This document shows, piece by piece, positions 3,690 to 4,685 of a stretch of 32,228 bases of DNA (position 1 is the first letter of the stretch; every line of letters starts with the position of its first letter). The stretch comes from Muribaculaceae bacterium (GTDB lineage Bacteria; Bacteroidota; Bacteroidia; Bacteroidales; Muribaculaceae): contig JAIEAO010000135.1 of NCBI GenBank assembly GCA_029071345.1, forward strand, positions 1-32,228, in the 5' to 3' direction. Position numbers and translations under genes: made by a program. The notes under the pieces are model-generated. The model was given only the letters and a program-made list of their open reading frames with translations, was not told where the DNA came from and searched no databases.

Positions 3690-3721
3690 TTTGTATAACA
3701 GAATAATTTGTATTAACTTTA
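3690..3721 (+). promoter_or_regulatory. Promoter for the AbiF-like RNA and gene
   Basis: TTTG at 3690-3693 and TAACTTTA at 3714-3721 are separated by 20 bp, the expected Bacteroides -33/-7 spacing, with one mismatch in TAnnTTTG. The start of transcription would fall near 3723-3730, directly at the 5' side of the predicted RNA structure. Confidence 0.6.
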
Positions 3722-3722
3722 C

Positions 3723-3776
3723 ACGCATAGAACCTACCACGCCTCTCAACGATGCGAAACTGGTAGGTCATTTTTT
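3723..3776 (+). ncRNA. Candidate abiF-type antitoxin RNA with H-type pseudoknot
   Basis: The interval between promoter and Abi gene can fold as two interleaved stems: CGCAT (3724-3728) with ATGCG (3752-3756), and CCTACCA (3733-3739) with TGGTAGG (3761-3767). The order 5'S1-5'S2-3'S1-3'S2 is an H-type pseudoknot. A T6 run at 3771-3776 follows directly, so stem 2 doubles as a terminator, and the Abi ATG is only 6 nt further on, reachable by read-through. Structured RNAs upstream of abiF genes are known (the abiF RNA motif), and recent work describes such RNAs as antitoxins of AbiF; both points are from memory. Whether this one belongs to that family is inference from position and fold. Confidence 0.6.
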
Positions 3777-3782
3777 ATTTAT

Positions 3783-4685
3783 ATGAAACGTCCATACTAC
3801 AAAAAAGCTATTACCGTTTCTGAGCAAATTGATTTGCTGGAGAATAAAGGTATGGATTTTTTTGATAAAAATTTAGCGCATAACACACTTTCAACAATCG
3901 GCTATTATCGGTTCAGCGGATATGCTTATCCATTCAGGAATAATGTGGATCATAGTAGTTTTGTAGATGACACCTCATTTGAGAAAGTCTATTCCATATA
4001 TGAATTTGACAGGTCTCTCAAAAGTTTGTTATTCTCATATCTGGCAAGAATAGAGATAGCCTTCCGAACTCTTGTAATTGATAAGTTCAGCATCGGAAAA
4101 GGAACGGCCTTATGGTATGCGGATTCTACAAATTTTATTAATATTGCCGAGCATGACGATTTTCTTGCCACACTTGAATATGATCTTGAAAATTCCAGAG
4201 AAGATTTCGTCAATCACTTCCGTAATAATTATTGCGACACTTTTCCTCCGGCCTGGATTGCCCTTCAGATAGTCTCTTTTGGTACACTCATTAAGCTATA
4301 TCGCAACTTTAATGACAGAGAACTGCAATCGCAAGTTGCGAAGACATTTGGATGTGAAAGCGTTGAGCGCTTTATATCTTGGATGAACACACTTGTATAT
4401 CTCCGTAATATTTGCAGCCATCACGCCCGTCTTTGGAACCGACCTATTAAAAAACGTCCGGAAGCATATAACTTCGGGGTGAAAGGGAAACGATGGACTA
4501 ACGATGATGTCTCAAAATTATACTATTCCATCTGCGTAATAGGATCATTACTAAAAAACATTATCCCCCATAATCTTTTCAAAACTGAACTTTCGGAGCT
4601 ATTTGAATCTAACCCTTACGTTAATTCTACCAAATCTAAATTTTTAGGATTTCCTAAGGATTGGCAGACAGAATTTCAATGGTAA
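3783..4685 (+). CDS. Abi family protein (AbiD/AbiF-like), HEPN ribonuclease
   Basis: This 300-residue protein belongs to the Abi_2 (AbiD/AbiF) abortive-infection family. The family's N-terminal signature is seen at residues 34-51 (NTLSTIGYYRFSGYAYPF), followed by a helical region (YSIYEFDRSLKSLLFSYLARIE, 71-91) and a HEPN motif R208-N-I-C-S-H213 (Rx4xH) in YLRNICSHHARLWNRP. HEPN proteins of this type are RNases; in phage defence they cleave RNA and stop growth. The gene is alone on the plus strand, markedly richer in A+T than its neighbours, which suggests horizontal acquisition. It is preceded by a promoter, pseudoknot RNA candidate and leaky terminator, the arrangement expected of an RNA-antitoxin system. 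A defence role is inferred; the family call is strong. Confidence 0.9.
   Translation: MKRPYYKKAITVSEQIDLLENKGMDFFDKNLAHNTLSTIGYYRFSGYAYPFRNNVDHSSFVDDTSFEKVYSIYEFDRSLKSLLFSYLARIEIAFRTLVIDKFSIGKGTALWYADSTNFINIAEHDDFLATLEYDLENSREDFVNHFRNNYCDTFPPAWIALQIVSFGTLIKLYRNFNDRELQSQVAKTFGCESVERFISWMNTLVYLRNICSHHARLWNRPIKKRPEAYNFGVKGKRWTNDDVSKLYYSICVIGSLLKNIIPHNLFKTELSELFESNPYVNSTKSKFLGFPKDWQTEFQW

Follow-up and report, generated by a model that had tools for sequence, protein, structure and literature searches.

The window analysed here is a 32,228-nucleotide (nt) stretch of DNA from a Muribaculaceae bacterium (contig C41 of a genome of 2.56 Mb that is 86% complete), and it carries a short RNA motif of the abiF family followed closely by abiF, the gene for a protein of the Abi_2/HEPN type. 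The unit belongs to the known AbiF-abiF RNA kind, a type of pair associated with phage defence. Judged by sequence comparison, it is highly probable that 3729-3776 specifies a single-hairpin abiF RNA antitoxin, and 3783-4685 its HEPN ribonuclease toxin AbiF. The core of the original prediction, which from the DNA letters had proposed an AbiF-like HEPN toxin and, as its candidate antitoxin, the RNA of its own leader, is therefore supported by Rfam, by Pfam, by a homologue (PbAbiF) complexed with non-coding RNA (ncRNA) and by covariation. The features of the locus are as follows.

3690-3693, + strand: TTTG, a -33-like element read in the sequence; in 52 of 80 related loci a TTTG precedes TAnnTTT by 18-22 nt
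3714-3721, + strand: TAACTTTA, a -7-like element read in the sequence; TAnnTTT is present in 75 of the 80 loci
3729-3776 (ends inferred), + strand: putative short transcript, the candidate antitoxin RNA, from its fold (z -3.69), the promoter and the T run
A3732-U3768 and G3730-C3769, with A3731 bulged, + strand: extension of the outer stem, from covariation
3733-3768, + strand: abiF RNA motif RF03085 (cmscan, 44.2 bits; gathering score 37)
3733-3738, + strand: 5' arm of the outer stem, pairing with 3762-3767, from covariation
3740-3742, + strand: CGC, 5' arm of the inner stem, pairing with GCG at 3754-3756
3746-3747, + strand: 5' side of the apical mini-helix (U3746-A3752 and C3747-G3751, triloop 3748-3750)
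3754-3756, + strand: GCG, 3' arm of the inner stem, the same letters that an earlier pseudoknot model had claimed
3762-3767, + strand: 3' arm of the outer stem, ending 3 nt before the T run, from covariation
3771-3776, + strand: T6 run read in the sequence, a probable leaky transcription end; a run of at least four Ts in 78 of 80 related RNAs
3783-4685, + strand: abiF, 300-residue Abi_2/HEPN protein (Pfam, PADLOC and 8vz6 matches)
4404-4421, + strand: HEPN R-x4-H motif, R208 to H213, aligned with R210/H215 of 8vz6

The interpretation of the 300-residue protein as a HEPN ribonuclease toxin of the AbiF/Abi_2 kind is supported by its domain and by its catalytic motif. It matches Abi_2 of Pfam with an expectation value (E) of 2e-55 (188.4 bits against a cut-off of 25.6) and AbiD of PADLOC at 6.7e-72, while no NCBIfam match was found for it. 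The only significant relative by sequence in the Protein Data Bank is 8vz6 (residues 4-300, E 7.1e-53), and the same entry, titled as a PbAbiF dimer bound to ncRNA, was the only hit with E below 0.001 (29% identical) in a fold search with an AlphaFold model. The HEPN motif that had been read in the translation is indeed of the R-x4-H form (R208-N-I-C-S-H213), and R208 and H213 are invariant in all seven aligned sequences, the window protein included.

Upstream of the gene, the RF03085 match is the only one to reach a gathering score when the window is searched against 4,227 Rfam families, and the only RF03085 match in the genome. The abiF RNA that the original prediction placed before such genes is thus confirmed by the covariance-model search, and the outer stem of six and inner stem of three base pairs that belong to the family are both present. 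TTTG and TAnnTTT elements are the Bacteroidota promoter consensus, and the proposed promoter TTTG-N20-TAACTTTA stands as described, with 20 nt between the two elements; in 61 of the 75 related loci having TAnnTTT, it starts 19 nt before the outer stem. The T6 run is followed by 6 nt and then by the ATG at 3783, again as stated, and the order of promoter, small RNA, T run and toxin gene agrees with the sequence and with the Rfam and Pfam matches. The stretch 3729-3776 folds at -15.3 kcal/mol, and none of 200 shuffles was as stable. Because AbiF begins soon after the RNA (in 53 loci its first profile-matched residue is found 48-82 nt beyond the motif start) and the T run is close behind the hairpin, a separate terminator stem would hardly fit; the outer stem of the candidate antitoxin hairpin, together with the T run, occupies the place of the terminator.

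The structure of the RNA was assessed by covariation. Searches for abiF RNA gave matches in 19 of 200, 9 of 395, 21 of 393 and 33 of 297 genomes, overlapping sets that were merged to 83 places, some of them under the Rfam gathering score (genome searches, E up to 0.001). Removal of three odd places by hand left 80, with 76 distinct sequences. Alignment A1 leaves out five places and has the 3' outer arm of the window-type rows misplaced by one column, and its outer-stem figures are thus a lower bound. Outer-stem pairs 1, 3 and 4 covary above all 1,000 shuffles, as do inner pair 1 (3740-3756; A-U 42, C-G 29 and U-A 4 of 76) and both extension pairs, A3732-U3768 (A-U 50 and U-A 16 of 76) and G3730-C3769 (paired in 62 of 76). 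Covariation of outer pair 2 is not above the shuffles (106 of 1,000 as high), outer pair 5 and inner pairs 2 and 3 hardly vary, and outer pair 6, the innermost (3738-3762), is non-standard in 16 of the 76 relatives. The apical pair 3747/3751 is C-G in 38 and U-A in 35 of 73 sequences, with no exception and no shuffle of 2,000 as high, and it holds in all 26 distinct loops; 3746/3752 is paired in 70 of the 73 and in 24 of the 26 distinct loops, among which it is not significant. Copies from viral contigs provide an independent set for 3747/3751, as the search patterns admitted all four pyrimidine/purine combinations there: the equivalent pair is U-A in 50 and C-G in 28, which is all 78 distinct copies. 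Both the exceptionless apical pair and the outer-stem extension are structural news for a published RNA family, as the Rfam structure line leaves the 11-nt loop with the apical pair unpaired and omits the extension. Overall, the nested structure is paired in 91.1% of cells against 78.3% in shuffles (none of 500 as high), and slid versions reach 34-47%. On this evidence the abiF RNA is a nested, bulged hairpin and not a conserved pseudoknot.

Two further pairings were rejected. In the window CCTACCA (3733-3739) is complementary to TGGTAGG (3761-3767), and the additional pair A3739-U3761 is present; its column is standard-paired in only 12 of 76 sequences, which makes it local. RNAfold pairs 3744-3745 with 3751-3752 in the apical loop, and 3745-3751 is contradicted (C-A in 33 of 73) in favour of 3747-3751.

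The original prediction had drawn the leader as an H-type pseudoknot of 3724-3728/3752-3756 and 3733-3739/3761-3767 and looked to covariation in both stems; covariation was found for the latter stem and not for the former, whose letters are present but whose pairing across relatives is only at the level of shuffles. It could be argued that the antitoxin is nevertheless a pseudoknot as in ToxI, since CGCAT (3724-3728) and ATGCG (3752-3756) can form five perfect pairs in the window and the relative at 70% identity keeps four of them. In register, however, the paired share of cells is 35.2%, and in shuffles it is 35.4% (314 of 500 reach the observed value); a single one of the 76 sequences has all five pairs. 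When every sequence is allowed its best register, 12 of the 76 attain five pairs, where shuffles would give 9.2. Sliding this stem, the second beside the hairpin, by one column raises the paired cells to 56.4%, with all five pairs in 2 of 76, but only two cells are then changed on both sides and the 5' letters would be those of the promoter's TTTGCA. In the five closest relatives (74-75% identity) the 5' arm is absent and the hairpin is kept, and the 3' arm competes with covarying nested pairs. A pseudoknot antitoxin is thus barely credible; 3724-3728 lies directly behind the -7 element, and transcription may cover just part of it.

Mapped onto a tree of 79 AbiF/AbiD proteins, leader type can be explained by 10 changes, where the minimum is 6 and the shuffled mean 47.4 (none of 200 as low). 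RNA type tracks AbiF clade, and RNA and toxin evolve together. The RNAs were typed by regular expressions; L097 was assigned manually, and L067 bears the label T5 though the model aligns it near the common type. The window clade (seven rows, SH-aLRT, the Shimodaira-Hasegawa-like approximate likelihood ratio test, 100) forms a separate long branch and has an RNA type that is one linker base shorter than the commonest; the window unit thus extends the family by a divergent clade of AbiF that has an RNA subtype to itself. Homologues without a structured leader, named in the original prediction as evidence that would count against it, do exist: no leader RNA was recognised for 16 of the 79 proteins, 14 of which make up an outlying, separate AbiD-like clade. 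Two AbiF genes without leader RNA (L073 and L074) have a promoter-like element directly at the start codon.

The analysis also adds to the AbiF family leader types that escape Rfam. A model trained on 77 leaders detects leaders at 12 of 37 further loci (E below 0.01), and Rfam found no abiF RNA (E up to 0.5) in the 14 loci given to it, which include eight of these 12. Loci L064-L071 have abiF-like leaders upstream of AbiF, most with a GCTTCCC loop start, that are detected by the new model and not by RF03085. The leaders of L075 and L077, which were not among the loci given to Rfam, resemble this type. A longer leader of two hairpins (CGGTTT..ACCG, then ACCCG...CGGGT) was seen by eye in L076, L078, L079 and L080, which belong to a distinct AbiF clade. 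In L136 two abiF RNA motifs 146 nt apart precede one AbiF, and in L128 one motif stands before each of two AbiF genes.

How the unit might work is suggested by its published relatives. AbiFCd, from a Clostridioides difficile prophage, is toxic, its toxicity needs R202 and H207, and its RNA, RCd22, neutralises it by direct binding; likewise PbAbiF carrying R210A and H215A is inactive (PMC12373285). PbAbiF comes from a Prevotellaceae bacterium and its ncRNA, AbiFr, is cis-encoded (PMC12373285, PMC12737573); the complex of the two has been described (PMC12737573). The window protein is homologous to PbAbiF almost throughout, with R208/H213 in the place of R210/H215, and its RNA lies upstream, on the same strand and adjacent to the toxin gene, as expected of a type III-like AbiF-AbiFr toxin-antitoxin pair; it differs in falling in the separate long-branch clade with its own RNA type. 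By analogy with these relatives, this pair would be expected to show binding, neutralisation and RNase activity. One promoter would drive both RNA and toxin gene; most transcripts would stop at the T run behind the hairpin, yielding a plentiful short RNA, and occasional read-through would provide the toxin mRNA. The RNA would bind the AbiF dimer, one RNA per monomer, blocking the active site of R208/H213. More speculatively, as with the ends of the transcript and a defence role in this organism, a collapse of the RNA pool, for example through phage transcription shut-off, might trigger AbiF to cut RNA and growth to stop.

The toxin fold of ToxIN is unrelated to that of AbiF. The resemblance to ToxIN-type systems seen in the original prediction stood in one respect, the working order of promoter, RNA antitoxin, leaky end and toxin that is also that of AbiQ type III systems. 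In contrast, the tandem repeats that are a key feature of the ToxIN type (PMC12373285) are absent, there being a single RF03085 match in the window, as is the H-type pseudoknot, and the hairpin itself stands in the terminator place. The link between AbiF and the origin of Cas13 that the original prediction drew is in print, where AbiF is regarded as the ancestor of Cas13 (PMC12373285, PMC12737573). The unit itself is not a Cas13 or type VI CRISPR system, as it has one Abi_2 domain in 300 residues and one RNA motif in place of two HEPN domains and a CRISPR RNA array.

It could also be argued that the leader is only a cis-acting attenuator, or a hairpin in the 5' untranslated region of abiF mRNA, with no action on the protein. 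The T run does end 6 nt before the ATG, and RCd22 also lowers expression in cis (PMC12373285). The conserved unpaired positions and the covariation, however, exceed what a terminator needs, the same RNA is retained without AbiF in bacteria and phages (see below), and the homologue 8vz6 was solved with RNA bound; a purely cis-acting leader is accordingly improbable. Several observations nevertheless weigh against the toxin-antitoxin interpretation. The clustering of RNA types on the AbiF tree derives in part from close relatives, and L073 and L074, AbiF proteins of about 35% identity without a recognised leader, sit among RNA-bearing proteins, so that the RNA is not universal. The AlphaFold model was built from seven sequences and is of low confidence (predicted local distance difference test, pLDDT, 62.9). 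A simple terminator scan of the locus found none, although it accepts loops of 3-8 nt only, and more than 20 nt lie within the outer stem of this RNA. Finally, AbiFCd-RCd22, which shares with the window an Abi_2/HEPN toxin and an upstream RF03085 RNA and in which read-through gives co-transcription, has two abiF motifs, a separate terminator and a start site 168 nt before the ATG (PMC12373285), whereas the window locus has one motif, a T run directly behind it and a leader that is probably about 60 nt long.

The closest named relatives of the window AbiF, at 74-75% identity, are encoded by four Muribaculaceae metagenome-assembled genomes (MAGs) and one labelled as uncultured Porphyromonadaceae, followed by one Duncaniella MAG at 70%. 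Among 200 related genomes, 51 have an AbiF/AbiD match and five the 74-75% relative; in all five the abiF RNA lies directly upstream of AbiF. The claim that the unit is AT-rich relative to its neighbours proved correct, with a GC content of 33-40% in four 500-base windows against 41-59% in the flanking ones. To the right of abiF, three relatives (G026, G053 and G077) share a syntenic glycosyltransferase-NhaD block, with the break on the abiF side; a clean empty site was not demonstrated in these three, the left neighbours of the unit lying outside the stretches compared. Within about 3 kb of six named AbiF relatives none of the window's neighbour genes was found, the sole resemblance being a 25% sigma-factor match in L034. 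The AT-richness, the synteny break and the unshared neighbours fit horizontal transfer of the abiF unit, without proving an insertion site. The window's own genome also holds a second AbiF/AbiD-like fragment (G000:C22:49-339, L063), which is cut off, 37% identical and without abiF RNA.

The RNA is not always accompanied by the toxin. At the 83 bacterial places a full AbiF lies directly downstream in 50, a partial one in seven and a contig end in three, and none was detected in 23, though a very distant AbiF could escape the profile used, which derives from 25 sequences rich in Bacteroidota. By eye, some of these 23 look like remnants. Such copies without full toxin are common enough to raise the possibility that the window locus is itself a decayed or non-functional defence remnant. 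Against this, its reading frame is full-length with both catalytic residues, and promoter-like elements, hairpin and T run are intact, making decay here most improbable. Six near-identical cassettes of promoter, abiF RNA and T run, about 110 nt long and without toxin, occur in five genomes of the window's genus (L040:1930-2050; L041:2983-3096 and 3850-3972; L044; L039; L047), the two in L041 being 867 nt apart. Their further flanks are shared only in part. Two of the six are incomplete, one being cut at a contig end and one at its 5' side beside a gene that we take to be transposase-like. On plasmids, 15 distinct records were matched (two queries, E up to 0.01), with an Abi gene adjacent in 12; of the others, one continues into an IS6 transposase, a second lacks an Abi gene on the stretch and the third is unannotated.

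In viruses, toxin-free copies predominate. The scans used exact patterns and so sampled two RNA types, at loci that can be part of a contig. In IMG/VR the two patterns match 54 and 37 contigs; AbiF lies downstream in eight of the 91, one of them partial, and the other 83 (within L207-L297) have no AbiF anywhere on the stretch. Of the copies that the same patterns find in Bacteroidota genomes, 49 could be assessed, and 36 of these come with a full or partial AbiF; three more were too short. The excess of toxin-free copies in viruses is significant (Fisher p 4.5e-15, or 3.9e-12 with like-flanked viral copies merged to 71 groups). The window-type RNA, for which one pattern was scanned, matched no viral contig, and a degenerate-peptide scan confirmed no viral relative of the window protein. 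A tRNA lies on the same strand and no more than 200 nt away at 35 of the 83 toxin-free loci, and 36 lack any tRNA on the stretch. In the 70 distinct copies with enough upstream sequence, which contain 22 different 5' arms, the outer stem is retained in the absence of the toxin (mean of 5.37 of 6 pairs against 4.67 in shuffles, the largest of 500 being 4.9), and at least four Ts lie behind the stem in 32.

GenBank phages gave a similar picture. Three queries match 7, 96 and 90 records (E up to 10, many weak), of which 12 named phage loci (L298-L305, L307, L309, L312 and L313), picked to span hosts and not at random, were inspected. Their hosts are Mycobacterium (two), Bacillus (three) and, with one each, Enterococcus, Staphylococcus, Streptococcus, Synechococcus, Acinetobacter, Aeromonas and Salicola. 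No AbiF was found on the stretch in any of the 12, and by eye the outer stem has at least four pairs in all and at least five in 11. The Rfam cut-off is reached in six (Thibault, Acj61, PZL-Ah8, CGphi29, S-CREM1 and Lolly9); the RNAs of phiSHEF4 and Javan129 score 30-31 bits, under the cut-off of 37, and those of phiNIT1, SBSphiJ5, P59 and SapYZU04 are not listed by Rfam at E up to 1. The putative abiF assignment in the Bacillus and Staphylococcus phages draws on the shared core and on reading by eye; the leader of a Cytobacillus AbiF, at 36.5 bits, is itself just under the cut-off. In a set of 20 toxin-free phage loci, composed of eight of the named ones and 12 IMG/VR loci, 14 reach it. When the AbiF protein was used as query, 79 phage records matched at E up to 1e-5; by organism name none of them is from Mycobacterium, Bacillus, Synechococcus, Acinetobacter or Aeromonas, and eight are unnamed phages. 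In P59 the RNA is flanked by tRNA-Asp and tRNA-Pro within an array of 15 tRNAs, in S-CREM1 by tRNA-Asn and tRNA-Gly, and in Lolly9 it lies just before tRNA-Asn.

Selection on an antitoxin RNA in phages that lack the toxin would most simply be explained by neutralisation of a host AbiF, as pseudo-ToxI acts against ToxIN. In that case phages of several host phyla would carry abiF RNA alone, often in tRNA arrays, and express it as a decoy antitoxin to occupy the AbiF of the host and thereby block abortive infection, a proposal whose chances we judge to be evenly balanced. There is precedent in phage PhiTE, whose pseudo-ToxI, likewise a phage RNA mimicking an antitoxin, neutralises ToxIN; it involves another RNA and toxin and its function has been tested, whereas the decoy role of abiF RNA is proposed (PMC3475682). 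An abiF small RNA has been annotated in cyanophage S-CREM1, as here, by authors who count three phages in Rfam; the section concerned makes no link to AbiF, toxin absence or counter-defence (PMC9964418). No statement of the decoy idea was found in the literature searched, which includes PMC12373285, PMC12737573, PMC9964418, PMC12804078, PMC12948488 and PMC12548467 and is partial in coverage, without the Cell 2025 AbiF paper and the 2017 motif paper. The GGACC linker is common to the Cytobacillus AbiF leader and the Bacillus phages P59 and phiNIT1. A general matching of phage RNAs to their hosts was rejected, as the hairpin of two Rhodococcus AbiF leaders is unlike that of the mycobacteriophage RNAs; that the linker agrees with the host in one case but not in another speaks against a decoy, as does the possibility that the phage RNA serves some other purpose within tRNA transcripts. 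Should the toxin-free copies in phages be decoys, they would represent a widespread RNA-based phage counter-defence against AbiF; the AbiF of the window would be the kind of target at which they are aimed, and the solitary cassettes of its Muribaculaceae relatives would be a bacterial counterpart of the phage decoys. The phage tRNA regions with toxin-free abiF RNA also contain skipping-rope (RF02924) and ROOL (RF03087) RNAs (L299:2494-2564, L307:1417-1486 and L266:5403-5987), and in one viral contig (L242) two abiF RNA motifs were seen by eye to be directly adjacent.

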